Source of the DNA: SAR116 cluster alpha proteobacterium HIMB100
GTDB lineage: Bacteria > Pseudomonadota > Alphaproteobacteria > Puniceispirillales > Puniceispirillaceae
DNA: 64,000 nt
Direction of reading: 5' to 3'
Assembly (NCBI GenBank): GCA_000238815.2
Contig: AFXB01000001.1
Coordinates: forward strand, 124,001-188,000
Translations under genes and position numbers: made by a program
Shown: in pieces, positions 37,595 to 51,865 of the stretch
Numbering within the stretch: the first letter of the stretch is position 1
Layout: every line of letters begins with the position of its first letter
Notes under the pieces: generated by a model
Seen by the model: the letters and a program-made list of their open reading frames with translations, nothing else
Told to the model about the DNA's origin: nothing
Database searches by the model: none

Positions 37595-37671
37595 CGGAGT
37601 GTAGCGCAGCCTGGTAGCGCACTATACTGGGGGTGTAGGGGCCGTGGGTTCAAATCCCGCCACTCCGACCA
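37595..37671 (+). tRNA. tRNA-Pro (anticodon GGG)
   Basis: A 77-base cloverleaf with encoded CCA. The acceptor stem is CGGAGTG with CACTCCG; the D arm is GCGC/GCGC; the anticodon loop is CTGGGGG, giving GGG; the T arm contains GTTCAAATC. Its 3' portion from the anticodon loop onward is one copy of the 47-base direct repeat bounding the island, so it served as attachment site and remains intact at this end. Confidence 0.96.
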
Positions 37672-37672
37672 A
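37626..37672 (+). repeat. attL-like direct repeat (tRNA-Pro 3' end)
   Basis: This 47-base segment runs from the anticodon stem/loop to one base past CCA and is identical to 46187-46233. Flanking bases differ on both sides, so the repeat is sharply bounded. This is what site-specific integration into a tRNA 3' half produces. Confidence 0.9.
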
Positions 37673-37699
37673 AGAATTCTGTAGTTAATACAGTGATTT

Positions 37700-37736
37700 A
37701 ACCCCTTCTGGTTCTTTTGACCAGGAGGGGTTTTTT
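37700..37736 (+). terminator. Strong intrinsic terminator after tRNA-Pro
   Basis: A 13-bp stem, AACCCCTTCTGGT at 37700-37712 and ACCAGGAGGGGTT at 37720-37732 (one wobble), with a 7-base loop and a T tract to 37736. It lies just inside the left island end and would stop tRNA transcription before it runs into the island. Confidence 0.85.
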
Positions 37737-37744
37737 GTGTTTTT

Positions 37745-37764
37745 GTCCACAAAGTGTCCACAAA
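37745..37764. repeat. Tandem GTCCACAAA repeat near left island end
   Basis: GTCCACAAA occurs at 37745-37753 and again at 37756-37764, an 11-base period. A related pair, GGCCACAAA and GGCCACACT, lies at 46084-46103 near the right end. The spacing and terminal location fit arm-type recombinase sites, but this is inference. Confidence 0.5.
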
Positions 37765-37787
37765 TATCTCAGATTTTAATTGGTATT

Positions 37788-39503
37788 CTATGAAAACAGC
37801 CAATTATGAATATTGGACGAATTGCTTAAAAGTCCTGACCTTGGGTGATAACCTCGGTCAAAGTCGGAGAAAGTGTCAAGCATGATCTGTAAGTTATTAT
37901 ATTCTTGAGAGAGCGTTGATAATTCATCCAGCCTCTTCAAAATAGCGTCTTCATCAAAGTTGGCTTTAGCTGGATTTGAATTTGATAGCCGGGCATTCAA
38001 AGCAAGGTTTTCTATATTTAACGGGCAGCTCATAACTGTTTCTGTTATGTTCTGCTCCCAGGGGAGCTGCATAACAATTCTGAGGTTGCTTTTAAAGTCC
38101 TGGGTATCGAGCCAATCGACCGCATCTTGCAATTCATTGTTTAAGTAACCACAGCTAACAGTGTGGGCAAATGGTTGGTTTGGATCTAGAAGGCTAGCGG
38201 AAGTGGTAATTTTACTAATCCAGGTTTCTGATATTGATGAGATAACCTTTAGCTTGTTTGAATCCAAATCACGGTGCGAATGTGTTACAATTTCAATTTC
38301 TGCGATAAGGTTTTTGTGTTTTCTGAAGCTATTTAATTCATCGTTATTTGGCATGCCAATACAGAAAACTACAAAGTTTATGCCAACGGCGTCAAAGTCT
38401 TGCATTCGCTTTCTGATAAGGGGCTCAGACAAATCACTTAGAGGAACTCGAACTTTCTTTATGCCAAGTTGCATAAGTCTTAAGAGCGGATAATCATTTC
38501 TTACAATTTTCCTGCTGAACTCTTCCATAGGCCCATTATAGGGAAGTGGTCGCGCTAGAGCCCAATCGTGTCTTAGATGCGGTATCAGAAAACTAAGATT
38601 TCTCCGAAAAACGGGCGGTTTTATTGGTTGTTCACAAGTTGTTTTCTGCCTAGCGCCATTAGTTTGAATGAACTCAATATTATGATTGTTCTGGTCTACA
38701 GTTATTATAGAGACGCCATATTTTCCTTTATCGTCACGGCCATATTCATCTTCAACTTGACCGGGAAATAAAGCGGAATAATCTTGTCTTGTAAAACTAG
38801 TTGCCGGATGACAATAAAGTTTTGTTTGTCCTAGCCTATTGAAAAAAAAGTGATGAACATGACCAGAGAAGATCGCTTCAATATTATATTTTTTTGCAAG
38901 GCCAAGTAACCATTGACGGCCAGGTTCGGCGTAATTGTCATAATGACTGTCTTCAGCTGGGTCGTTTATAAATGGAGGGTAATGCGAAAACAGAAAAATT
39001 CTGCTGTTTCTAACTTTTTCAAGAGTCGTTTCCAACCACTTCTTTTGTGAATGCTCTTCTTCTACATTATTTACAAGTGAAGAATTCATAACTATGAATT
39101 GTATGTCATAGAATTCAAATGAATAATAATCCTCACCAAAACTCTCTTTATAACTAGTTAAGGTGTCTTTATCAGCCGGACCGGCAGGAGAAACGAGAGA
39201 GGGTTTGTCACCAATATCATGGTTCCCTGGCACAAACTTCATATTAGGCATGAGAGGCGAAAATATTTTCTTCGCCTCTTTAGTGGCGAGAGAATAGGCA
39301 TCCATATGGGGCAGAGGGTGCACCATGTCTCCTAAATGAATGACGAAATCCGGGTTCTGATCTGCAATGATCTGAACCGCATATCGCGCTCTTTCATTTG
39401 CCTTTTCGTTTACAGGATAGGGTGAAGATTGATCGCCCTCTGGTGAGCGGATATGAGTGTCGGTGATTATACCAAATTTGAATGTTTCAAAGTTTTTTTT
39501 CAT
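37788..39503 (-). CDS. Metallophosphoesterase with an unrecognised C-terminal domain
   Basis: A 571-residue, two-part protein. Residues 8-250 form a calcineurin-like metallophosphoesterase with all motifs: D15 and H17 in TDTH, GD at 58-59, GNHD at 93-96, the histidine of SHYPP at 174 and GHVHH at 214-218. Residues from about 300 to 571 form a separate region with alternating strands and helices (for example LGIKKVRVPLSDL and LRIVMQLPW), perhaps a TIM-barrel; I do not recognise it. There is no signal peptide, so it is probably cytoplasmic. It is last in the minus-strand tctB-tctA-tauD-like run, five bases after the dioxygenase. Substrate unknown. Confidence 0.82.
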   Translation of the reverse strand: MKKNFETFKFGIITDTHIRSPEGDQSSPYPVNEKANERARYAVQIIADQNPDFVIHLGDMVHPLPHMDAYSLATKEAKKIFSPLMPNMKFVPGNHDIGDKPSLVSPAGPADKDTLTSYKESFGEDYYSFEFYDIQFIVMNSSLVNNVEEEHSQKKWLETTLEKVRNSRIFLFSHYPPFINDPAEDSHYDNYAEPGRQWLLGLAKKYNIEAIFSGHVHHFFFNRLGQTKLYCHPATSFTRQDYSALFPGQVEDEYGRDDKGKYGVSIITVDQNNHNIEFIQTNGARQKTTCEQPIKPPVFRRNLSFLIPHLRHDWALARPLPYNGPMEEFSRKIVRNDYPLLRLMQLGIKKVRVPLSDLSEPLIRKRMQDFDAVGINFVVFCIGMPNNDELNSFRKHKNLIAEIEIVTHSHRDLDSNKLKVISSISETWISKITTSASLLDPNQPFAHTVSCGYLNNELQDAVDWLDTQDFKSNLRIVMQLPWEQNITETVMSCPLNIENLALNARLSNSNPAKANFDEDAILKRLDELSTLSQEYNNLQIMLDTFSDFDRGYHPRSGLLSNSSNIHNWLFS

Positions 39504-39508
39504 TAAAT

Positions 39509-40564
39509 CTATACCTCAATCGGTGCATGAAGGACCGTTTCTTTTGTGATTACGCCTCCTCTATCACCGATTTCGATTGAGCCATATCTTTGTGAAAAAA
39601 CATGAGGAAGAGGGCGGTCATCTGGCACAGATAACCACAGTCTCAACAGATGCCGTCGCCTGTCTTGGTCTGGCCAGTCGATAAATGCTGTCCTGTCATG
39701 AAGCATAGTATGATTATATACAAACTGCATATCACCAGGTTTAAGTCTCATACGAAGGTTCACCTCTGGCTCATTGACAATTGTATCTAATAAATCCAGA
39801 GCTTGAATCTGCTCATCAGATAGATTTGGCGCGTCTTCAAATCTTTTCGCAGAATCAATATAATTTCTTTGGTAAATACAGGTCAAAAACCCCTCAAAGC
39901 TATTGTAGACTGGAATGGTGAAATAGGGCTTTTCGCCTTCTGGGACTTCTCCTCGTCTGTCCGTCGCTATTGGGTCAAATAGAACCGCCAGCAGGTCAGA
40001 CCGTCTGTCTAATAGCTCATTGTAGGCTGTCATGCTGGAGGCAAGCATCGAGTCGCCTCCTTCCTTTGCCTCATTGATACACAACAATCCAACTACATCA
40101 CTTGAATCCGTGTGAAAGGTCTGTCTTTCTGTGGTTTGATAAATTCTTACCTTTGGGTCATTGATGTCAGCACCTGTGTCCCGCACATGCCCAAGCAAAT
40201 GCCCTGCAGCGTTCTGAGATCTCGCTTTGCCTATATAACTTCCAATTCCACAGAAGATTTGTGCTCTGTCTAGAGGCGTACAGTCTTCAATTGGCAGACC
40301 TGAGATCAATTGGAAACCAATACCATGCTTCAGTGTATCTGCGAGTGTATCTAAAAATGGACTCAATTTCGAAAGTCTGAAACTCTCTGGTGACATTTTG
40401 CCTATAGGTATGCCGCTGTCTTTAAATTTTCGACTGGCATCGAATAACTCAGCGATTTCCGCATCATTTAAAACATAGGTCCAAATCTCTGGTTGTTTTT
40501 GCAGTTTTGAACCATACCAGGCAGCAGGCGTATTAACTCTTTCCAAACTTAATCTGGCATTCAT
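39509..40564 (-). CDS. TauD/TfdA-like Fe(II)/2-oxoglutarate dioxygenase
   Basis: A 351-residue non-haem iron dioxygenase. The iron ligands are H151 and D153 in FHTDSSDVV and a distal histidine, most likely H289 in MLHDRTAF; R304 or R308 in RRHLLRLW would bind 2-oxoglutarate. Family members hydroxylate taurine, alkyl sulfates, phenoxyacetates and other substrates. The position between TctA and a phosphoesterase, in an island with a sulfatase, suggests an organosulfur substrate, but this is inference. The start has AGGAAATAAAGC ahead of ATG. Confidence 0.87.
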   Translation of the reverse strand: MNARLSLERVNTPAAWYGSKLQKQPEIWTYVLNDAEIAELFDASRKFKDSGIPIGKMSPESFRLSKLSPFLDTLADTLKHGIGFQLISGLPIEDCTPLDRAQIFCGIGSYIGKARSQNAAGHLLGHVRDTGADINDPKVRIYQTTERQTFHTDSSDVVGLLCINEAKEGGDSMLASSMTAYNELLDRRSDLLAVLFDPIATDRRGEVPEGEKPYFTIPVYNSFEGFLTCIYQRNYIDSAKRFEDAPNLSDEQIQALDLLDTIVNEPEVNLRMRLKPGDMQFVYNHTMLHDRTAFIDWPDQDRRRHLLRLWLSVPDDRPLPHVFSQRYGSIEIGDRGGVITKETVLHAPIEV

Positions 40565-40574
40565 GCTTTATTTC

Positions 40575-42047
40575 CTAATTGTTGAATGTGATGCCCCTGC
40601 GGACAATAATGAAAACGGCGAGTGCGGTAAGGGCCCAAAATAGCCAACAAATTGGACTAGAGAAAAACACCATCAAATCCCCTCTGGACAGAAGGAGTGA
40701 CTGACGGAAGTTATCCTCAAGAAGAGGGCCTAAAATAAACGCAATCAAAAAGGGGGCTGCCGGAATTTTCAATTTCAACATAAGGAACCCGACGAGTCCC
40801 ATTAAGAACATCACCCCAACATCAAATATATTGTTGTTCACTGCGTAAGAACCAAAAACACATAAGACAAGCACGATTGGGAAGAGCACCCGATGAGGAA
40901 TGTCAGCAATTTTGCTAATTACCCGAATAGAGGCTTTGCCAATCAAAAACAAAAAAATTGAGCTAAGCATAATGCCGATAAACAAAGCATAAATGAGAGA
41001 TAGATTATCTTGAAACAATAAAGGGCCAGGGCGAAGGCCATGGATCATAAAAGCCCCCAGAATGATTGCAGTGATGATGTCGCCGGGTATCCCTAGGGCA
41101 AGAAGTGGAATAAGCGTTGCGCCGGCGACACCGTTATTTCCACTTTCTGCAGCCGCTACGCCTTCCAATGAACCTTTGCCAAATTCATCAGGGTTTTTTG
41201 CATTTCTCTTTGCTTCAGAATAGCTTAAAAACGCAGAAGGCGCGCCGCCAATTCCCGGGATAGCGCCTAGAATAACGCCTATAAAACTTCCGCGAATTAT
41301 GGATTTCAGGCATTTCTTAAGATCTTCAAAGGTGGCCCCTGTTCCGGCTAGGGGATTGTGCTCACGCTTTGGCTCTAATCGGCCGAAATAAGCTATGATT
41401 TCGGGAAGGGCAAACAAGCCAATAAGAACAGGTATAAAATTCAACCCGCTCATCAATTGCACCTCTCCAAACACAAATCTATTTGTTCCATAGATTAAAT
41501 CCAAACCAATGGTGGCGAGAATCAGGCCAAACATAGCTGAGCCCAGCCCTTTTAGAAGTTGATCGCCAGACACGCCTGCAATAATGGTAAGAGAGAACAA
41601 AATAAGCGTGAATACTTCAGGCGATCCGAAGGCTAGAGCCAGGCTTGCTAATATTCCCGCAAATAAGATGAGAGAGATATTCGAGAAGAAGTCAGCAATA
41701 CAAGAGGAATATAAAGCGATGTCTAATGCTCGTCTGGCCTCCCCTCTTTTGGCCAGAGGGTAGCCGTCAAGAACCGTGCAAGAGGCGGCTGGAGTTCCTG
41801 GTGCGTTGATCAGAATTGCGGTTATTGAGCCGCCATAGATACCCCCTTTGTAGACGCCCAATAAGAGTAGAATTCCACTTACGGGAGGCAGCGTGAATGT
41901 GAAGGGCAGTGTGAGGGCGACGGCCATTGGTGTCGTCATACCGGGAACGGCCCCCACAAAAGTGCCGATCAGAACACCAAAACCCAGAAGGAGAACATTT
42001 TGCCAAGTGGCAAAAATTAAAAATGCTTGCTGTAATACATCTAACAT
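40575..42047 (-). CDS. tctA: Tripartite tricarboxylate transporter, large membrane subunit
   Basis: A 490-residue integral membrane protein with about twelve helices. The duplicated TctA signature is seen as VGAVPGMTTPMAVALTLPFT near the N-terminus and GAIPGIGGAPSAFLSYSEAKR in the middle. TTT systems import carboxylates and some sulfonates by ion symport with a periplasmic binding protein. It follows tctB by three bases and precedes the dioxygenase by ten. The binding-protein gene is divergent. The substrate cannot be named. Confidence 0.94.
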   Translation of the reverse strand: MLDVLQQAFLIFATWQNVLLLGFGVLIGTFVGAVPGMTTPMAVALTLPFTFTLPPVSGILLLLGVYKGGIYGGSITAILINAPGTPAASCTVLDGYPLAKRGEARRALDIALYSSCIADFFSNISLILFAGILASLALAFGSPEVFTLILFSLTIIAGVSGDQLLKGLGSAMFGLILATIGLDLIYGTNRFVFGEVQLMSGLNFIPVLIGLFALPEIIAYFGRLEPKREHNPLAGTGATFEDLKKCLKSIIRGSFIGVILGAIPGIGGAPSAFLSYSEAKRNAKNPDEFGKGSLEGVAAAESGNNGVAGATLIPLLALGIPGDIITAIILGAFMIHGLRPGPLLFQDNLSLIYALFIGIMLSSIFLFLIGKASIRVISKIADIPHRVLFPIVLVLCVFGSYAVNNNIFDVGVMFLMGLVGFLMLKLKIPAAPFLIAFILGPLLEDNFRQSLLLSRGDLMVFFSSPICWLFWALTALAVFIIVRRGITFNN

Positions 42048-42050
42048 GAA

Positions 42051-42530
42051 TCAGAGCCCCTGGACTAGAAACGCCGTGACACCCAGAGGAATAGGTATGC
42101 CAGCTATCTTGTAGAAGAAAAGATAGAGAAGGATCGGGATAATCAAGGCATTGGCAATGATGATGAGAGGTCTTTTTTCTCCAGCAAGTGGTAACGCAAC
42201 CATCAGAGCTACGCTGCTGCTAAGAATAAAGCCTGCCCATTCAAGCGAAGACGCGAAAACCGCTAATAGGAAAATGAATTTCGAAAGTCGTTTAATTGCC
42301 TGAGGATGAACATTAGGCTCTGGTTGTGCAGCCTTCTCCCGCCTTGAGCGAATGATGATTACAGAACCTAAAAGAAATAAGATTGTTGAGACGATGTAGG
42401 GGTAATAGCTGGGCGCTAAAGCGGCAAACCTTACTTTCCTGGGGGCATCTATGCCTATGGGGATTAATATCGTTATCAGTGTTAACGACACTATCACCAT
42501 CAAAATTCCTGACCAGAAATTTATCCTCAT
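42051..42530 (-). CDS. tctB: Tripartite tricarboxylate transporter, small membrane subunit
   Basis: A 159-residue TctB with four hydrophobic helices, near residues 6-24, 38-58, 80-105 and 115-140. These subunits are poorly conserved; assignment rests on size, topology, the PSYYPYIV segment and position directly before tctA. The ATG at 42530 is chosen because it has a strong AGGAGGGG site; the earlier in-frame start at 42572 lacks one. Confidence 0.87.
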   Translation of the reverse strand: MRINFWSGILMVIVSLTLITILIPIGIDAPRKVRFAALAPSYYPYIVSTILFLLGSVIIIRSRREKAAQPEPNVHPQAIKRLSKFIFLLAVFASSLEWAGFILSSSVALMVALPLAGEKRPLIIIANALIIPILLYLFFYKIAGIPIPLGVTAFLVQGL

Positions 42531-42549
42531 ACTTCCCCTCCTAACCAAA

Positions 42550-42613
42550 CCTTGCAAGGACCTAATTGTCATGTCAATCTCTTAGCTAAGGTCGTAGGTC
42601 TACAAAAAAACGA
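42550..42613. promoter_or_regulatory. Divergent tctB/tctC control region with palindromes
   Basis: Two perfect 10-base palindromes lie in the 122-base gap: CCTTGCAAGG at 42550-42559 and CTTAGCTAAG at 42591-42600, centres 41 bases apart. A looser repeat, GTAGGTCTAC, is at 42604-42613. On the minus strand TTGACA (42587-42582) lies between the two palindromes and could be the tctB -35 box. These are candidate operators; no regulator gene is in the island. Confidence 0.45.
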
Positions 42614-42652
42614 CAAAAACAAGACAAAAGACCGATAATTGAGGAGGAACTT

Positions 42653-43636
42653 ATGAAAAAGATGTTAAATTATCTGGTTGCATCAATTGCTGGCTTATCA
42701 GCATTTTTGCTTCCTAACCTTGCTTTGGCTGAGTATCCAGAAAGGCCAATCACGATTGTTGTTCCCTATGGTCCGGGCGGCGCAGCTGACCTATCAGCAC
42801 GATTGATCGCTGGTTCTGCGCCTGCATATTTGGGCCAGCCTGTTCTTGCCGTGAACAAAACTGGTGCTGCAGGTGTGGTAGGATCAAACTTTGTGGTAAA
42901 CGCCCCAGCAGATGGGTATACACTTCTGTCTGCCCGCGTCGGAAGCCAAATGGGCGTTCCAGCCATGAACAAGACCATTCCTTACAACTGGGACGATTTC
43001 ACCATGCTTGGATTAATAGAAAGAAATCCATTCGTTCTGGTTGTTAGCCCTGCAAGTGGAATAAAGTCATTCGCTGACTTTGAGAAAAAAATCAAAGCAG
43101 GGGAAGAAATGTCCTACAGCACAGCAGGTGTCGGAACGCTTTTGCATACTGGCGTGGCGGTTATGGCGAATGCTATGGGTGCTGATTTTGATAAGCTTAT
43201 CCATGTACCTTATAAAGGTGGGGGGAAAGCTCGTGCCGCTGTTGTTGCTGGCCAGGTTGATTTCTCTTTCCAAAACCTCTCAGCAGCAGCAGGAGCGATT
43301 GAAGCAGGTCAGCTTATAGCACTTGTTGTCAGCACGCCAGACAGACAAAAGATTATCGCTGATGTCCCAACCGCAGCTGAGGTCGGCCACCCTAGCATCG
43401 AGATGGTGATCGGTTGGTCTGCGATCTATGGCCCTCCAGGACTGCCTGATGATGTTGTGGCGAAATGGGTTGATACGCTCGAGAAATTGAAAAAAGACCG
43501 CGGCTGGAACAAGATGACCAAAAGCTTAGGTAATATTGTTGACATCCGGTCTCCGGCAGATACGCGCTCATATGTAGAGGCGCAGTACAATGCTTATGAT
43601 GAAGCCTTGATGAAGTTAGGCATGCGGATTGAATAA
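42653..43636 (+). CDS. tctC: Tripartite tricarboxylate transporter, periplasmic binding protein
   Basis: A 327-residue Bug-family solute-binding protein. A signal peptide ends at about residue 26 (LALA before EYPERP). The ligand-binding landmarks VVPYGPGGAADLSARLIA and NKTGAAGVVGSNFV are typical, followed by ADGYTLL and VPYKGGGKARAAVVAGQVDFSF. The start has a very strong GAGGAGGAAC site and the gene is followed by a perfect terminator, consistent with the high expression expected for binding proteins. It is divergent from tctB-tctA. Confidence 0.94.
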   Translation: MKKMLNYLVASIAGLSAFLLPNLALAEYPERPITIVVPYGPGGAADLSARLIAGSAPAYLGQPVLAVNKTGAAGVVGSNFVVNAPADGYTLLSARVGSQMGVPAMNKTIPYNWDDFTMLGLIERNPFVLVVSPASGIKSFADFEKKIKAGEEMSYSTAGVGTLLHTGVAVMANAMGADFDKLIHVPYKGGGKARAAVVAGQVDFSFQNLSAAAGAIEAGQLIALVVSTPDRQKIIADVPTAAEVGHPSIEMVIGWSAIYGPPGLPDDVVAKWVDTLEKLKKDRGWNKMTKSLGNIVDIRSPADTRSYVEAQYNAYDEALMKLGMRIE

Positions 43637-43642
43637 ATCACT

Positions 43643-43672
43643 TTGGAGACGGTGTTCAGCCGTCTCCAATTT
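43643..43672 (+). terminator. Intrinsic terminator after tctC
   Basis: A perfect 10-bp stem, TTGGAGACGG at 43643-43652 and CCGTCTCCAA at 43660-43669, with a 7-base loop and TTT after it. It lies seven bases past the tctC stop and should limit readthrough into the sulfatase. Confidence 0.85.
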
Positions 43673-43730
43673 AATCCATTTGAAGATCTGAAACCAAAGC
43701 GCAAACCTCCAAAAAAGTGAAACACTTACC

Positions 43731-45257
43731 ATGAAGCCAAATTTTTTGATCATCATGGCGGATCAGCTGGCCGCCCCAGCCTTGTCAATCTATGGTGATA
43801 AAATCGTAAAGGCGCCGAATATAGATACCCTCGCTGCCAACGGCGTGGTATTTGAAAATGCTTATTGCAATCTGCCTATGTGTGGCCCTTCGAGGGCCTC
43901 CATGCATGCGGGCAAGTTACCTTTTTCCATTGGCATGTATGACAACGCGTCTGAGTTTAAGGCCTCTATTCCTACCTTTGCTCATTATTTGAGGGATTTA
44001 GGATATCAGGTTGAATTATCAGGAAAAATGCATTTTGTTGGCCCTGACCAAATGCATGGTTATCACAAACGGCATACAACTGAGATTTATCCAGCTAATT
44101 TTGCTTGGACAGTCGATTGGTCGAAGGGACGAGAGTACAGGCCGACAAATTTAACTATGGCGCCTGTAATCGAGAGTGGGTCATGCATTAGAACACTTCA
44201 GATGGATTATGATGACGAGGTTGCGTATCACGCTGTTCAGGCGATTTATGATTTAGCGCGTCATCATAAAGAAGATCCTTGGTGTCTGACAGTTTCATTT
44301 ACTCATCCTCACTCTCCTTTCGTGATAGCCGAAGAGTATTGGAAACTTTATGACCATAGTGAAATTCCATTGCCCACTACGCCGCCAATGTTGCTTGAGG
44401 ATATGGATCATCTCAGCCGAAATTTGCATTTTTGCCAGGCTAGGCATGAATTTACGGTAACTGATGAACACCGCTTGAATGCAAAACATGCCTATTATGG
44501 GATGATTTCTTACATTGACGAGAAAATCGGAAATTTAGTCACAGCCCTTGAGCGCTCAAACCTAAGTGAAAATACGATAATTATTTTTACCGCAGACCAT
44601 GGCGAGATGATGGGTGAGAGGGGTATGTGGTACAAACAGCATTTCTTTGAATGGGCGTCTCGTATACCGCTGATCATTCATGCTCCTTATAAGTTTAAAA
44701 CCGGCAGAATTACGCAGAACTGCTCTTTGGTTGATATCATGCCGACTCTTCTTGAGCTGGCTAATGAGGCACCATTTGATAAGCTGGTGGACACTTCAGA
44801 CGGTCAATCTTTAGTTCCGGCATTATTGGGCAAACCAGAGGAGTTGAGCGATATCGCCTATTCGGAATTTGCAGCAGATGGCTCAACCGGCCCGTCCAGA
44901 ATGGTGAAACACAAAAACTATAAATATATGGATTTGGAAGGAGTGGATGAACTACTTTTTGATGTAGTTAAAGACCCCAACGAATTAAACAACCTTATCG
45001 ACGATATATCATTCTCTGATTTAGCCGACGAAATGCGACGACTCTGTAAGTCAAATTGGAATATGGATGACATGCGCACCATCATTGCTAGCGATCAGAA
45101 AAGAAGGTTAAAAGTGCATCAATCAACAGCCGGAGATCCAACTTACGTTAACATTGTTCGTTCAGATGATTCTGGCAGATATATAAGAAATGCAGGGGCA
45201 GCTGACACCAAAGCAAAGGCAAGACTTCCATATGTTCCTCCGGCTAGACCAACTTAA
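43731..45257 (+). CDS. Choline-sulfatase-like sulfatase
   Basis: A 508-residue formylglycine sulfatase. The maturation motif is MCGPSR with C51, P53 and R55, the same CGPSR form as choline sulfatases. Metal-site segments are IIMADQ near the N-terminus and FTADHGEMMGERGMWYKQ in the middle. The C-terminal SDQKRRLKVHQ region resembles the choline-sulfatase C-terminal domain. No signal peptide is seen. It lies downstream of tctC and upstream of the NIPSNAP-like remnant on the same strand. A sulfate ester taken up by the neighbouring transporter is a reasonable substrate, but choline sulfate itself is not proven. Confidence 0.86.
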   Translation: MKPNFLIIMADQLAAPALSIYGDKIVKAPNIDTLAANGVVFENAYCNLPMCGPSRASMHAGKLPFSIGMYDNASEFKASIPTFAHYLRDLGYQVELSGKMHFVGPDQMHGYHKRHTTEIYPANFAWTVDWSKGREYRPTNLTMAPVIESGSCIRTLQMDYDDEVAYHAVQAIYDLARHHKEDPWCLTVSFTHPHSPFVIAEEYWKLYDHSEIPLPTTPPMLLEDMDHLSRNLHFCQARHEFTVTDEHRLNAKHAYYGMISYIDEKIGNLVTALERSNLSENTIIIFTADHGEMMGERGMWYKQHFFEWASRIPLIIHAPYKFKTGRITQNCSLVDIMPTLLELANEAPFDKLVDTSDGQSLVPALLGKPEELSDIAYSEFAADGSTGPSRMVKHKNYKYMDLEGVDELLFDVVKDPNELNNLIDDISFSDLADEMRRLCKSNWNMDDMRTIIASDQKRRLKVHQSTAGDPTYVNIVRSDDSGRYIRNAGAADTKAKARLPYVPPARPT

Positions 45258-45268
45258 TCATTAGAATA

Positions 45269-45919
45269 ATGTCTTTACTTTATTGCCACTGTCTTGTTGA
45301 TTGTGAGCCAAAATCATGGATGGAGGTCTTCAATGATATCGTTGCTCACGGTGCGGTTTCCTTTGAGACAAATGGTTTAAAACTCGATAGTATATGGCGT
45401 AGCCAAATTGGGCTGCCTCGTGACAGCCTTACCGTAATTTTTACAATTAGTACAAGACTAGAAAATCAAACCACTTATTTTGATTTCATTCGAGATATGC
45501 CAAAAGTGAGGGCGGTATTGGTTGATTTTATGCAGCCTACATTGCGCCCAAAAACTTCCCAAAAGCCCTCTACACAGGGTAATTACGCATTTCGCTGGTT
45601 TGACACTCCAAAAGACAATTTTGACGAGTTTTTGGAACTCTGAGAAGCTGCGTGGCCGTCTTTCGAGGCGCAATATGATTCCCAAGTGATTGGGTTGTGG
45701 CGAATACAACAGAAATCAGTAAATTCTGTCCGTACACTACTATTAACAAGACGCCGTGATCTTGGCATGTGGGAGCGTTCAAAAATCCCAACAACATCAG
45801 AAGAGATTGAAACTCGACAAAAGTTGAGTCGCCGATATGACTTGTGCGATTGGACGGTTGTATACACTACAACGCTTTTGACTGCGCATGATCAGCCTGA
45901 CACTGTAAGGTGGAGTTAG
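45269..45919 (+). pseudogene. NIPSNAP-like gene interrupted by an in-frame TGA
   Basis: A single frame runs 216 codons from ATG at 45269 to TAG at 45917-45919, broken only by TGA at 45641-45643 (codon 125). Residues just before it read KDNFDEFLEL and just after EAAWPSFEAQYD, which is continuous with the NIPSNAP pattern of a tryptophan-containing helix followed by VIGLWR and a long strand-helix repeat ending in DWTVVYTTT. No shift of frame is needed. The simplest reading is a nonsense mutation (for instance TCA to TGA). Readthrough or recoding cannot be excluded. It follows the sulfatase by 11 bases; the ribosome site is weak. NIPSNAP proteins have no settled function. Confidence 0.7.
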
Positions 45920-46186
45920 CGTATCGTTTGATTTATTTTAATTTTAAAACGATGAAACCATGTCAGATAAGAATTGATCAATGCAAATTGCATATGTTGC
46001 TATTTCAGCTTTAAAAAAGAAAAGCAGCAAGAAAATAGATTACAAAATAAGCTTAATGAACAAGTAATGCACGCTTAATACTTGGCCACAAACTGGCCAC
46101 ACTTTTACATGCTTATAGGAGCGTAGCAGAGCTGCTAACTTGACGGAAAACCTACTGTAAAATACTCTATACTTCCTAAGAACCAC
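45920..46186. other. AT-rich right end of the island, no gene
   Basis: No coding frame is convincing. It contains a hairpin ATCGTTT (45923-45929)/AAACGAT (45947-45953) with a very AT-rich loop, the tandem GGCCACA repeat at 46084-46103, and a stretch at 46118-46132 that matches 12 of 15 bases of the tRNA-Pro 5' end (37596-37610). Confidence 0.5.
46084..46103. repeat. Tandem GGCCACA repeat near right island end
   Basis: GGCCACAAA at 46084-46092 and GGCCACACT at 46095-46103 repeat with an 11-base period, mirroring the GTCCACAAA pair at the left end. A candidate recombinase-binding site pair. Confidence 0.45.
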
Positions 46187-46233
46187 ACTGGGGGTGTAGG
46201 GGCCGTGGGTTCAAATCCCGCCACTCCGACCAA
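46187..46233 (+). repeat. attR-like direct repeat of the tRNA-Pro 3' end
   Basis: An exact 47-base copy of 37626-37672. Upstream there is no acceptor 5' strand or proper D arm in register, so this is not a second functional tRNA gene but the distal attachment site of the island. Confidence 0.9.
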
Positions 46234-46589
46234 TTTTCTTCTTTTAAATCCATGTATATAGAAATTTATATGACTTCTGAATGCCTCTGTCCGGATGCCG
46301 TCTCTTGCTAAGCTCAGTCATAAGAAGCAGATTGGTCTATTTTCTCGCTAGCTGCCTGCAAAAAACAGAAGAGCTGCTTTTTAAAAACGCTCAATCAGGC
46401 AGAGCTGTCAGATAGGTCTCTGTCAATGTTGAAAGGTGGCAGGGAAGGAGCAGCGTCAGACATTTGCATGGCTGTGTCTGCTTTCCTTTGGTCAGATATG
46501 AACAGATCGCCGACAACAAATTTGTTACTCAAGAATTCAGCAATAATAATAATTTATTCATTGCCAAAGAGAAGAGCCACTTAATAAAG
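46234..46589. other. Intergenic region between island and pckA
   Basis: About 356 bases without a believable gene, lying downstream of pckA (which reads leftwards). No clear intrinsic terminator or repeat was found. Confidence 0.4.
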
Positions 46590-48194
46590 CTAATTTTCTA
46601 ATTTTGGTCCTGCAGATTGAAGAGCTTTACCCAAATCCCGATCGGTAAATTTATCAAAATTTTGAATGAAAAGAGCGGCCAACTCATTGGCTTGCGACCG
46701 CCACTGGGCTTCATTATCGAAGCTTGAGCGGGGATCGAGGATCGCGTCATCAATTCCGGTTATCTTATTTGGCATACTGAGGTTGAAAATGGGTAGGTTA
46801 GTTGTGTCTTCATCATCAAGTGCCCCTGAGAGAATGGCTTGAATAATCAGGCGTGTGTTTCTGAGTGAAATGCGTTCCCCTTTTCCATTCCAACCTGTGT
46901 TTACCAAATATGTTCGCGCGCCCGAATCAATCAAACGTTTGTTAAGCACATCTGCATATATTGTTGGGTGAAGACTTAAAAAAGCAGAACCAAAACAAGC
47001 AGAAAATGTTGGGGTAGGTTGTGTAATTCCCCGCTCTGTGCCTGCAAGTTTTGCGGTAAATCCTGAGAGGAAATGATATTGTGCTTCCTCATTATTTAAA
47101 ATTGACACGGCTGGCAAAACACCAAACGCGTCAGCAGTAAGAAAAATGACATGACTTGGGTGGCCTGCCTTGGAAAGAGGGCGAACAATATTTTCAATAT
47201 GGTAAATCGGATAAGATACGCGAGTATTTTCGGTTAAACTTGTATCACTAAAATCAACTTTACCATTCTCGTCCATGCTCACATTTTCAAGCAATGCGTC
47301 GCGGCGGACGGCATTATAAATTTCGGGCTCCTTTTCAGGATTTAGATCAATGGTCTTAGCATAACAACCGCCCTCAAAATTAAACACGCCATCATCATCC
47401 CATCCATGTTCATCGTCACCAATCAGGGAGCGATCAGCAGATGCTGACAGGGTGGTTTTGCCGGTACCGGAAAGTCCGAAAAACAAGGCCACATCATTGT
47501 CGCGGCCCTGATTAGCTGAACAATGCATTGATGCGATTCCGCGCTGAGGCAACAAGTAATTCATGACTGAAAACAACCCTTTTTTCATCTCTCCGCCATA
47601 CCAGGTTCCTCCGATAAGCTGAACACGTTCTTTAAAGTTGAATGCGATAAATGTCGGTGAGTTCAACCCTTGCTCTTGCCAATTTGGATTGCTTGTTTTT
47701 GAAGCATTGAATACTGTGAAGTTAGGTTCAAAATCGTCAAGCTGTTCATCAGAAGGTCGAATGAACATATTCTTCACGAAATGAGCTTGCCAAGCCACTT
47801 CCATGACGAACCGGACCTTCAGGCAGCTATTTTCATTCGCGCCGCAATAGCCATCGATGATATATAATTTTTTTTCAGAAAGCTGCGAGGCGACAAGTTC
47901 TCTGAGTTCTGTCCATACCTCTGGTGAGAGTGGCTTATTGTCATTTTTTGTGCCGTTACCATTCCACCAGAATGTTTCAGCTGTTATGTCGTCTTTAACA
48001 ATAAATTTATCTTTAGGTGAGCGGCCAGTATATTCGCCTGTAAAAACGTTTACTGCTCCAGTGTCAGTGACAAACCCTTTTTCAAAACCCGTTAAATCTG
48101 CTTGGGTTTCTTCTTCAAATAGATCTTCGTAAGAGGGGTTATGAACAATATCAAGAGGGTTGGTGATTCCGAACTGTTCCAGGAATTTGAACAT
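46590..48194 (-). CDS. pckA: Phosphoenolpyruvate carboxykinase (ATP)
   Basis: A 534-residue enzyme converting oxaloacetate and ATP to phosphoenolpyruvate in gluconeogenesis. The kinase-1a P-loop GLSGTGKTT is at residues 240-248, followed by the metal-binding [29 protein letters not shown] near residue 57 binds oxaloacetate, and [13 protein letters not shown] near 195 holds catalytic lysine and histidine neighbours. Length and motifs are normal for the ATP-dependent class. It lies just outside the island repeat. Confidence 0.96.
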
Positions 48195-48537
48195 TAACTT
48201 TTACCTCATCATAATACTAGTCCCGCAATATCATATCAAATAACGTGTCACAAGATGTATCCAACTGTGTCTATGCATTACAGATACGCAAAGAAAAATG
48301 AAAAAATAATACTGGTTTTTATCTTTAATGTTTATTCAGGCAATGAGAGGCGAAAGCGTACAGGGGAAAACCGCTCAGGCTCTGTCACACATTGACTGAG
48401 GCAAGGCGAAGATGAAAAGTGCTATATAGCTGTGCAAGACTGAGTTTCTGCTGTGTGGGCGGATAATGAGTTTCTGCGGCGGGGATAGAGATACCTTCTT
48501 TTCTTCATAACGGTTATGTTAAGAGCAGAGGTATAAG
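48195..48537. other. Divergent intergenic region between pckA and the enolase-superfamily gene
   Basis: A 343-base AT-rich gap that must hold two outward promoters. TGAGTTTCTGC is repeated directly at 48441-48451 and 48467-48477, 26 bases apart, and may mark a regulator site. No small gene is convincing. Confidence 0.4.
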
Positions 48538-49668
48538 ATGATCAAAATTTGCTCCATAAAAGTAACTGTCTACAGATTTCCGTTAGACAATCCTGTTCAA
48601 ACGTCATTTGGCCTGATGGTTGACCGGCCCATGACGATAGTTGAATTGGTTAGCTCTGACGGTCATACAGGTTGGGGAGAAATTTGGTGTAACTTTCCTC
48701 ATGTAGGCGCTGAACACAGAGCAAGACTCATTTCCAGTGTTTTTGAACCATTGTTGTTGAGTCAGGTATTCGCAAGCCCAAACGCCGCATTCGAATTCTT
48801 AACCAAAGCGACGTGGGTATTAGGTTTGCAAACAGGTGAATTTGGGCCAATAGCTCAATGTATAGCCGGAATAGACATTGCGCTTTCAGACATATACGCA
48901 AAACAAAGAAATAAGCCGTTATGGGAGCTTTTTGGCGGCCAGTCCGATGTCGTCGCTCTATATGCAAGTGGCATCAGCCCAATAGGCGCAGAACAAACGG
49001 CCAGACTCGCTGTTGACAATGGCTATGACGCCTTAAAGCTGAAAATTGGATTTGGCAGTGAAGTCGATATCAGGAATATCAAGGCTCTTCGTGAAGTAGT
49101 TGGATCTGCGAGAACTTTAATGGTTGATGCCAATCAGGCATGGACAGTTGATGATGCCTGCGAAATGATAAAGGAATTAACGTCATTCGACCTTTCTTGG
49201 CTGGAGGAACCAATCGCGAAAGATAGACCTCACAGTGAATGGAAACGATTAAGAGATGAGGCATCTGTGCCGCTTGCAGGCGGGGAAAATTTGTTGGGGA
49301 ACACTGAATTTTCTGATGCCATTAAAGATGGAATTTTATCAGTCATACAGCCAGATATAGCAAAATGGGGCGGCCTCAGCCAAACCATCCCTCTGGCAAA
49401 ATCTATACTCAATTCCGGCCGCCGTTATTGTCCTCATTACCTGGGTGGCGGAATTGGATTGGTTGCGTCAGCACATGCACTTGCTGCCGCTGGAGGGGAT
49501 GGAATGCTAGAAGTGGATTTCAATCCTAACCCGTTGCGTTCTGAGCTTGTTGGCGACTTATTGTCTGCAAAGAACGGTAAAGCAACACTCGGCAAGAAGG
49601 CTGGCTTGGGATTTACCCCTAATATGAGAGCTATAAAAAAATATGAGGTGGCCCAACATAGGTCTTGA
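48538..49668 (+). CDS. Mandelate racemase/muconate lactonizing enzyme family protein
   Basis: A 376-residue enolase-superfamily enzyme. The catalytic KxK pair is K167 and K169 in ALKLKIG. Metal ligands are D197 in VDANQAW, a glutamate at 223-224 in WLEEP and E250 in AGGEN. K276 in QPDIAKWGG and H300 in CPHYLGGG are further candidate acid/base residues. The substrate, probably a sugar acid, amino acid derivative or other carboxylate, is not predictable. The ATG follows AGAGGTATAAG. It stands alone between pckA and arsH. Confidence 0.88.
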   Translation: MIKICSIKVTVYRFPLDNPVQTSFGLMVDRPMTIVELVSSDGHTGWGEIWCNFPHVGAEHRARLISSVFEPLLLSQVFASPNAAFEFLTKATWVLGLQTGEFGPIAQCIAGIDIALSDIYAKQRNKPLWELFGGQSDVVALYASGISPIGAEQTARLAVDNGYDALKLKIGFGSEVDIRNIKALREVVGSARTLMVDANQAWTVDDACEMIKELTSFDLSWLEEPIAKDRPHSEWKRLRDEASVPLAGGENLLGNTEFSDAIKDGILSVIQPDIAKWGGLSQTIPLAKSILNSGRRYCPHYLGGGIGLVASAHALAAAGGDGMLEVDFNPNPLRSELVGDLLSAKNGKATLGKKAGLGFTPNMRAIKKYEVAQHRS

Positions 49669-49719
49669 TGTCTGCTTGAGCGTTGGGAATTTTTAAGCAC
49701 TGTAAACCCAGATAAATGT

Positions 49720-49732
49720 CGATATAATATCG
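49720..49732. promoter_or_regulatory. Palindrome over a TATAAT box ahead of arsH
   Basis: CGATATAATATCG is a 13-base inverted repeat (6+1+6) that contains TATAAT at 49723-49728. It is 48 bases upstream of the chosen arsH start. An operator overlapping a -10 box is plausible; no clear -35 match was found. Confidence 0.4.
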
Positions 49733-49779
49733 GTATGTTACTGTAAGGTTGAATTAATCCACTGATGTACAGGATCCCC

Positions 49780-50487
49780 ATGGATACGCCCCAGCTGAAC
49801 CAAAAGGCCTTTCGGCCGATTGATCATAACCAACTGAGCAATCATGAGACATCACCGCTGAAAATTGCGCTTCTGTATGGGTCTTTGCGTGAACGCTCAT
49901 ATAGCCGGTTTCTGGTTGAAGAAGCTGCCCGGATCTTGGAGGGGTTCGGTGCAGACTGCCGGATATTTAATCCCTCTGGTTTACCCCTGCCAGATGACGG
50001 TGCAGATGCAAGCCATCCAAAAGTCGCTGAATTGAGGGATTTGATTACATGGTCAGAAGGTATGGTGTGGTGTTCACCAGAACGTCATGGGGCGATGACA
50101 GGGATTATGAAAGCCCAAATTGACTGGATACCACTTTCGCTGGGCTCAGTCAGGCCGACACAAGGAAAAACCCTTGCGGTTATGCAAGTGTCTGGTGGTT
50201 CACAAAGTTTTAACACCGTTAACCAAATGCGTATTCTCGGGCGGTGGATGCGCTGTCTGACCGTTCCGAATCAATCATCTGTTCCCAAGGCCTTTCAGCA
50301 ATTTGATGATGATGGGCGCATGCTGGCTTCGTCTTTTTATAATCGTGTGGTTGATGTGATGGAAGAGCTGGCGAAATTTACCTATCTTACCCGCGGCCGG
50401 GTTGACTATCTTGTGGACAGATATAGCGAGCGTGAAGAAACGAGCGATGAGCTGAGCAAGAGAGTACGCAGCACATCGTCAAATTAA
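49780..50487 (+). CDS. arsH: ArsH-type NADPH-dependent FMN reductase / organoarsenical oxidase
   Basis: A flavodoxin-like protein of 235 residues. The FMN phosphate loop is [12 protein letters not shown], followed by [24 protein letters not shown] and [15 protein letters not shown], the unmistakable ArsH pattern. ArsH oxidises trivalent organoarsenicals or reduces quinones and metals. The ATG at 49780 follows AGGATCCCC; one at 49765 would add five residues. No arsR, arsB or arsC gene is next to it, so it is a solitary ars gene here. Confidence 0.92.
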
Positions 50488-50526
50488 CAAATGCGGTATC
50501 AGTGCGATGATAGGAAAGGCAAAGCT

Positions 50527-50694
50527 ATGAATTGGAATAAGCTGGGTACAAGCCTTGTCTCTGCGTTATTTCCTGCAGCCGGGTTATATTTCTGTTGGTG
50601 GCTGATGGGTCAGGCAGGTGAACTGGTTGCTGGCCTTGTATTTGGGGTTCTGTGTGTGAATTATTTCCTGATCATGCGCAAGCTGAAGCGCTAG
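50527..50694 (+). CDS. Small hydrophobic protein, unknown
   Basis: A 55-residue protein with two probable membrane helices (about residues 9-27 and 31-50) and a basic C-terminus RKLKR. The ATG at 50527 has AGGAAAGG eight bases upstream; an in-frame start at 50491 lacks this. It follows arsH by about 40 bases on the same strand and may be cotranscribed. I do not recognise a family. Confidence 0.6.
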   Translation: MNWNKLGTSLVSALFPAAGLYFCWWLMGQAGELVAGLVFGVLCVNYFLIMRKLKR

Positions 50695-50768
50695 GGAAGA
50701 CAAAATTCAGACCAAAGGGTGAGAAGAGAGTGAGCAGTCTGCTGGCTGGAATGAGGGCTACGATTAGT

Positions 50769-51082
50769 TCAGCGGCGTTTTCCAGGGACGCGAGAGGTGA
50801 ACTGAGGTGGGTGTTTTTGTACCCAGCGGATGAATTTCGCAAGACGCGGGTGGTCCCGCAAATCTTCCGGCGTGTTATAGTCACGGGCGAGTTCAGCTTC
50901 GCTTAAACTGGCATGAATTTCTTTGTGGCAGATATGATATAATAATACTGTGTTACCGTTTTTCCGCCTTTCAGCTTTGGGAATAGATGATGACGAGATT
51001 GAGGTGCATCCTTTGGTGTAGGACGGCTGTACAAGCTGCAGATAGGCTGATTATCGTCTGATTTCGTTGGTGTTTTATTCAT
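50769..51082 (-). pseudogene. HNH-endonuclease-like gene with one-base frameshift
   Basis: Reading leftwards from ATG at 51082, the frame gives a basic N-terminus, then SRHHLFPKLKGGK (residues 29-41). It must then shift by one base at an A5 tract (51082 side of about 50966-50970) to continue as NTVLLYHICHKEIHASLSEA and DYNTPEDLRDHPRLAKFIRW to TGA at 50769-50771. Adding one A gives exactly 104 codons plus stop. This matches small alphaproteobacterial HNH proteins. One expected zinc cysteine in the first CxxC is a tyrosine (CSLY), a second sign of decay. The ATG overlaps the stop of the DUF3291 gene in an ATGA junction. Confidence 0.72.
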
Positions 51083-51522
51083 GGCTGAAACGGTCGGGTA
51101 AATGTGAAGGCAAAGCTGCTTGGGCCGTTTTTCCGAACGGCTTCAAGCCTGTCTGCGCCTTCTTCGGGAGTAGGCAAATGGCCAGCTTTTACCCACCAGA
51201 GCGCCAGATGTGTGTCAATCGTCTCAAACCAGTCCTTTCGACGTTTCATAATAGCCGCATGACGATCATTCCGGTAGGTGAAGGCACGAAGCGCGTCCAG
51301 ATCACGCCACACAGACATATTCAATAATAAATGAGGGTCTGCAAAAAGCCGGATATCTGTTGCATTTTTCCCATCCCCGACCAGACGCCAGATAAAGCCG
51401 TCTGCTGCTTCAGCTTCAGCGTTGACCTCATCTAAAGCGGCCATAAATTCTGTATTTGCGGGGTCGTGAGGAGCCACACGAAAACGGGCAACATTAATCT
51501 GGGCAAGATAGACGTCAGCCAT
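51079..51522 (-). CDS. DUF3291 domain protein
   Basis: A 147-residue protein matching DUF3291 (dimeric alpha-beta barrel type). The features are an N-terminal YLAQINVARF strand, DGFIWRLVGD in the middle, then MSVWRDLDALRAFTYRNDRHAAIMKRRKDWFE and LALWWVKAGHLPTPEEGADRLEAVRKNGPS, a pattern seen in this family. No reaction is established. It has AGGACTT ahead of its ATG and its TGA overlaps the start of the frameshifted HNH gene, so the two form a small minus-strand operon. Confidence 0.85.
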   Translation of the reverse strand: MADVYLAQINVARFRVAPHDPANTEFMAALDEVNAEAEAADGFIWRLVGDGKNATDIRLFADPHLLLNMSVWRDLDALRAFTYRNDRHAAIMKRRKDWFETIDTHLALWWVKAGHLPTPEEGADRLEAVRKNGPSSFAFTFTRPFQP

Positions 51523-51865
51523 TTTAAGTCCTGTGTGGAGGTTTTAAAAAGGTGATGCGCACACAGACAACGCCCAGCAGTTGGCAAGGAATCGGAGATC
51601 CCGTCTGCTTTTCATCACTCTACTGGACGTTTCCGTTTTGACTTCGACATCTGGCACCCTCTTGTTCAGGAACTTTACTGTATAGTGTGGTGCCGATTTG
51701 AAGCATCTTTAAGCATGCGCGTATAAAAACGCAGAGTCAAACCCGATTGAGGGGAAAATTTTTCTCAAATTGTGCCTTTGTATCTTCGCATGTCTTTCTG
51801 GTTGGTGCTCTGGCATTTTGTTTGCATGTCTGTATCCGAGGTCTAACTTTTGACAGGAGAGGGAG
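51523..51865. other. Divergent intergenic region, no gene seen
   Basis: A 343-base gap between DUF3291 and the small gene at 51866. It must contain promoters for both directions. No strong hairpin, palindrome or coding frame was found; the part next to 51866 has a strong GGAGAGGGAG ribosome site. Confidence 0.4.

Follow-up and report, generated by a model that had tools for sequence, protein, structure and literature searches.

A metabolic cargo island with apparently phage-derived ends and no integrase at a SAR116 tRNA-Pro(GGG) gene

The tRNA-Pro(GGG) gene of the SAR116 cluster bacterium HIMB100 is followed by an 8.56-kb segment that is closed by an exact 47-bp copy of the 3' half of the tRNA. 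We consider it somewhat likelier than even that this segment (37626-46233 of the window, the whole 64-kb stretch of DNA analysed here) is a cargo island built on a phage attachment site (attP) and moved by the integrase of an infecting phage, acting in trans. This reading is favoured because unrelated cargo lies between similar minimal attP halves, unlike what random prophage decay would be expected to leave. Comparable blocks in related genomes, with different cargo, suggest that a phage docking site can be borrowed by bacterial genes as a means of moving.

The target is the only tRNA gene of the window (Table 1). The exact repeats that the original prediction placed at this gene are borne out: the two copies agree at 47/47 positions, or over 52 nt with two mismatches when extended, and no third copy occurs in the 2.46-Mb genome with up to three mismatches allowed. 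Each repeat starts in the anticodon loop and ends past the 3' end of the tRNA, and the right copy lacks the 5' half. A predicted fall in base composition is present inside the island (43.1% G+C against 49.1% upstream) but does not stop at the right repeat, as 46234-51600 has 45.2%. Relatives do not share this adjoining stretch (PEPCK, MLE-type dehydratase, ArsH) at the same location, and it may represent an earlier layer of the hotspot. The perfection of the repeats had been taken to indicate recent insertion. That argument is weaker than claimed: selection acts on the tRNA side, and the same-genus genome G001 has an identical 42-bp tRNA 3' segment.

Table 1. Features of the island and its target gene, in window coordinates
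Feature	Position	Strand	Evidence
tRNA-Pro(GGG), target gene, 3' part supplied by the island	37595..37671	+	ARAGORN
attL core, left 47-bp repeat	37626..37672	+	only two genome copies
Intrinsic terminator, homologous to the attP-side terminator of L153	37700..37732	+	fold z -5.35; homology 66/83
Left tandem arm-type motif TGTCCACAAAGTGTCCACA	37744..37762	+	motif search
Metallophosphoesterase (MPE)-domain protein, 571 aa, cargo	37788..39503	-	PF00149
TauD/TfdA-family dioxygenase, cargo	39509..40564	-	PF02668
TctA, tripartite tricarboxylate transporter, cargo	40575..42047	-	PF01970
TctB, cargo	42051..42572	-	PF07331
TctC solute-binding protein, cargo	42653..43636	+	PF03401
Choline-sulfatase-type sulfatase, cargo	43731..45257	+	TIGR03417, 562 bits vs cut-off 433
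orf124, 124 aa	45269..45643	+	no Pfam or NCBIfam match
3' tail of phage Lys-rich gene (ALKKKSSKKIDYKISLMNK*)	46008..46067	+	strict DNA homology to L153 from 46014
Right tandem arm-type motif TGGCCACAAACTGGCCACA	46083..46101	+	motif search
attR core, right 47-bp repeat, tRNA 3' half only	46187..46233	+	repeat comparison

The expectation of an island without an integrase also held. No integrase was found between the repeats among the ORFs or with Pfam and NCBIfam profiles, and no remnant turned up close to the two ends when the genome's own integrases and two from relatives were used as tblastn queries. The genome contains 14 Phage_integrase matches, and for the phage integrase type described below it yields nothing above a weak Xer-like match. 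It had been proposed to search for a resident integrase that could act as helper. In the neighbourhood of 13 resident integrase matches, the best fit to the arm motif had 6-7 mismatches of 19, which is about chance, and none of these integrases has matching arm sites nearby. An integrase of genome G003 at the same tRNA was rejected as helper, its arms being different and its contig stopping. Near tRNA-Leu(GAG), the window's genome has three DUF6538-like integrase-type genes clustered within 12 kb (G000 C5:129-11720). Of the two routes originally offered, an integrase supplied in trans or one lost after entry, neither is proven; the evidence leans to supply in trans because the ends correspond to temperate phage attP halves and because integrase-less islands with different cargo have the same minimal ends in related genomes.

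Just inside each repeat there is one copy of the tandem motif TGKCCACAAASTGKCCACA, and these are the only two in the genome; the string TGKCCACAAANTGKCCACA likewise has a genome count of two, at the positions given in Table 1. The arm letters are TGGCCACA at the right end and TGTCCACA at the left. There was no exact match to the tandem motif in 135 other genomes of the order or in 384 other genomes of the class. The sole match with one mismatch among the 135 order genomes (G121) is treated as chance, since it falls inside a UspA-like coding gene. Shuffled versions of the window never reached two motif matches, even with three mismatches; this rarity is partly post hoc, because the motif was first read off the island, which is not the case for its presence at both ends. 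In IMG/VR, a tyrosine integrase gene is found at or adjoining the motif in at least 7 of 17 motif-bearing contigs. Integrase-bearing elements at the same tRNA have the same arrangement in other letters, such as TGTAGACATAGTGTAGACA at both ends of a 21.7-kb element in genome G013. That element (L199 3068 to L200) carries an Arm-DNA-bind_3 integrase and a Zorya-type defence system (ZorABCD).

A scan of IMG/VR for the att core returned nine contigs, in three of which (L153, L156 and L157) the attP is intact and flanked on either side by phage genes. The order is fixed: a small Lys-rich gene, a tandem arm, approximately 100 bp, the core, a terminator, a second tandem arm, and then the integrase side. 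Genes identified in these contigs by PHROGs include integrase, terminase small subunit, Erf, tail fibre, and endolysin. The right flank of the island (46014-46186) matches the temperate phage contig L153 at 125/166 positions and spans the tail KKKSSKKIDYKISLMNK*, and the left flank matches the other side of the L153 attP at 66/83 positions, through the terminator. In two shuffling controls, the alignment scores were reached in 0/300 and 0/200 shuffles on each side. The homology extents come from a strict alignment setting, because a permissive one overextended the matches. On these alignments, both island ends are phage-derived, each being one half of a temperate phage attP. No known packaging site was recognised in the retained phage DNA, and no phage combining exactly this island's arm motifs with a tRNA-Pro attP was found.

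The island ends gave essentially tRNA matches among annotated phages and plasmids; against annotated phages, the L156 integrase reached only ~25% identity, and one L153 protein had no match. The L156-type integrase was detected in 0/136 order genomes at E<=1e-15, in a search that does pick up the L157 integrase, which is 28% identical. One genome, of another family, has the neighbouring phage gene. On a further 41-kb IMG/VR contig (L154 1-300), a CC-variant tRNA-Pro core, as in the window's genus, adjoins integrase genes of another type, and a second phage type may thus use tRNA-Pro.

Upstream gene order is kept in relatives as far as the tRNA, and downstream order is back at about 50.5-51.8 kb. 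Everything between these conserved flanks varies, which makes tRNA-Pro an integration hotspot. The tRNA of G003 is directly followed by an integrase gene, after which the contig ends; G001 has one repeat copy at which two contigs overlap, and we interpret it as a site that holds no repeat-bounded island. The right-end signature AAACCTA-N(18-34)-CTGGGGGTGTRGGGG occurs within the order only in the window's genome, G004, G091, and G101, and its form with GTGTAGGGG occurs within IMG/VR only in L153, L156, and L157. Phage-ended islands with different cargo were found in four other SAR116 genomes (G004, G091, G101, and G102). The right end of G004 is identical to L153 at 122/133 positions; one end is seen, and the cargo side is short (~0.6 kb). 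G091 has a complete 1.8-kb island that encodes one treble-clef zinc-finger protein, with a right end matching L157 at 104/146 positions. In G101, where the ends are on two contigs and the right end matches L157 at 98/123, the cargo comprises a LacI regulator, a sugar ABC transporter, and a mannosylglycerate-hydrolase-like gene. The second element of G102 is complete at 2.0 kb, encodes a GAF-domain protein, and has ends that match L156 at 142/157 and 104/112; its right end is one base off the signature, and it is placed after a 12.9-kb integrase-bearing element. No integrase match was obtained in the G004, G091 or G101 islands or in this G102 element. The tandem array at tRNA-Pro of G102 (L197 2298-17157) consists of the 12.9-kb integrase-bearing element, the 2.0-kb phage-ended one, and a further phage-type left end. 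The segment in G103 was not counted as one element because the arms at its two repeats differ.

Between the repeats of the window's island there are seven ORFs (Table 1). All had been described as metabolic, and this is nearly so: the family matches are metabolic or transport-related, but orf124 has no family in Pfam or NCBIfam. A vertical history of all cargo genes would have spoken against an acquired island, as would relatives with the same genes here and no repeat. No such relative was found, and the cargo is patchy across the genus: in seven other genomes of the genus, the MPE gene was not found and nothing resembled the sulfatase above ~46% identity. From gene content, the cargo possibly serves the uptake and use of a sulfated organic compound, perhaps choline sulfate. 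The order MPE-TauD-TctA-TctB-TctC-sulfatase is also present in G100 (Candidatus Puniceispirillum sp. AH-135-E14, JAOEVD010000025.1), where a DUF6538-type tyrosine integrase directly follows the sulfatase at the contig end (L088 14354-15481). The cassette therefore seems to travel with different recombination systems, which is a counterpoint to our preferred reading. In G100, TctB and TctC are separated by a ROK-type regulator, and G018 has a similar ORF; this regulator is missing from the cassette of the window (42573-42652). Many alphaproteobacterial and some gammaproteobacterial MAGs have related clusters, in most cases lacking TauD, and MLE homologues lie close to those of the sulfatase and MPE in G091, G099, and G101.

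If the segment is a cargo island on a phage attP, movement would begin when an L153-like phage infects the cell and its integrase binds the arm sites. This integrase would recombine attL with attR and release the island as a circle with a complete attP, at whose junction the right end (with the TGGCCACA arm) would be followed by the 47-bp core and by the left end (terminator and TGTCCACA arm). The circle could enter tRNA-Pro(GGG) of another cell, or a site beside a prophage. The island could pass between cells through accretion and cis-mobilisation, leaving together with a prophage that had integrated in tandem at this tRNA, or it could be packaged while a phage infects the cell. We infer excision, circularisation, packaging, and transfer.

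The main rival, which we hold to be unlikely, is a gutted and refilled prophage, whose phage genes including the integrase were lost, whose cargo arrived by ordinary recombination, and whose att sites are fossils of an immobile segment. Phage homology at both ends and the phage gene tail left on the right are what such a history would produce, and decay to att-flanked remnants is the accepted origin of CIMEs (cis-mobilizable elements; PMC5704250). However, decay should leave phage DNA of variable lengths and some integrases. The sample consists of three viral contigs and five islands, and no contig of G004 or G101 holds a complete island. In every island the right-side homology ends at 123-172 bp from the core, just inside the 3' end of the phage gene, and the left-side homology stops 73-106 bp from the core where a left end is known; G091 and G101 are not fully independent here, because they have a left end in common. 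The arms are retained at both ends wherever both are visible, the two complete islands of other genomes measure just 1.8 and 2.0 kb, and the L156-type phage integrase was detected in none of the 136 order genomes.

An ordinary genomic island that recently lost its own integrase, with a likeness to L153 due solely to a shared integrase family, appears improbable. Its appeal lies in the G100 cassette, which directly precedes a DUF6538-type integrase, and in the integrase-bearing islands at the same tRNA in G003, G013, G094, and G102. The G100 integrase differs in family and position, though, no integrase remnant lies near either end, and the ends share a terminator and a coding-gene tail with the phage, which goes beyond arm layout. 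We give hardly any credence to an assembly artefact or a partial tRNA duplication by chance: the genome was assembled in 10 contigs, but the repeats lie well within a 307-kb contig, synteny with relatives is kept on both outer sides, and the same kind of end is found in several genomes.

On the preferred reading, islands without a recombinase could move by carrying a phage attachment site and borrowing the phage enzyme, which is a testable proposal. If this holds, infecting phages could spread metabolic genes among abundant ocean bacteria even though these genes do not belong to a phage, and other integrase-less islands could be recognised from paired arm-type motifs on the inner side of their repeats.

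Several known systems resemble the island in part. Phage satellites (PICI, PICMI, tycheposons, and VEIMEs) are also small islands thought to depend on phages, and marine examples exist. We infer a similar dependence on a helper phage here, but the only phage-like part of the island is the attP halves, and it has neither its own integrase nor the regulatory, replication, or packaging-interference genes of PICI and PICMI. Defective or 'grounded' prophages likewise have phage-derived ends at a tRNA; the island differs in its metabolic cargo and in the recurrence of the same minimal ends with unrelated cargo, and it contains no structural, replication, or lysis genes, its one phage gene being a 3' tail. 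The RAP44 island differs in having its own integrase (PMC9745183). A metabolic parallel is provided by the Dehalococcoides ssrA islands, which lack integration modules (PMC3146451).

The closest concept is the CIME. The island is flanked by attL and attR, has no integration or transfer genes, and could in principle be mobilised by a neighbour via accretion (PMC5704250). CIMEs are defined as decayed ICEs or IMEs, for example ICESt1-related elements (PMC5704250), whereas the ends of the island appear to come from a temperate tailed phage and the helper element is not resident; no conjugation or mobilisation gene was seen that would indicate ICE or IME descent. Integrase-less CALINs and transposase-less MITEs are treated as hitchers in the relevant parts of PMC11389934, which describe no phage counterpart. 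Like the island, they have recombination sites without a recombinase, and they are moved in trans, as the island would be, although their sites are integron attC sites or transposon ends and that of the island is a phage attP. We tentatively propose, at a little short of even confidence, that SAR116 bacteria harbour a class of integrase-less islands with an acquired complete attP (arm-core-arm and terminator), which would depend on the integrase of an infecting phage for excision and integration, include catabolic cassettes among their cargo, and form the phage counterpart of CALINs and MITEs.
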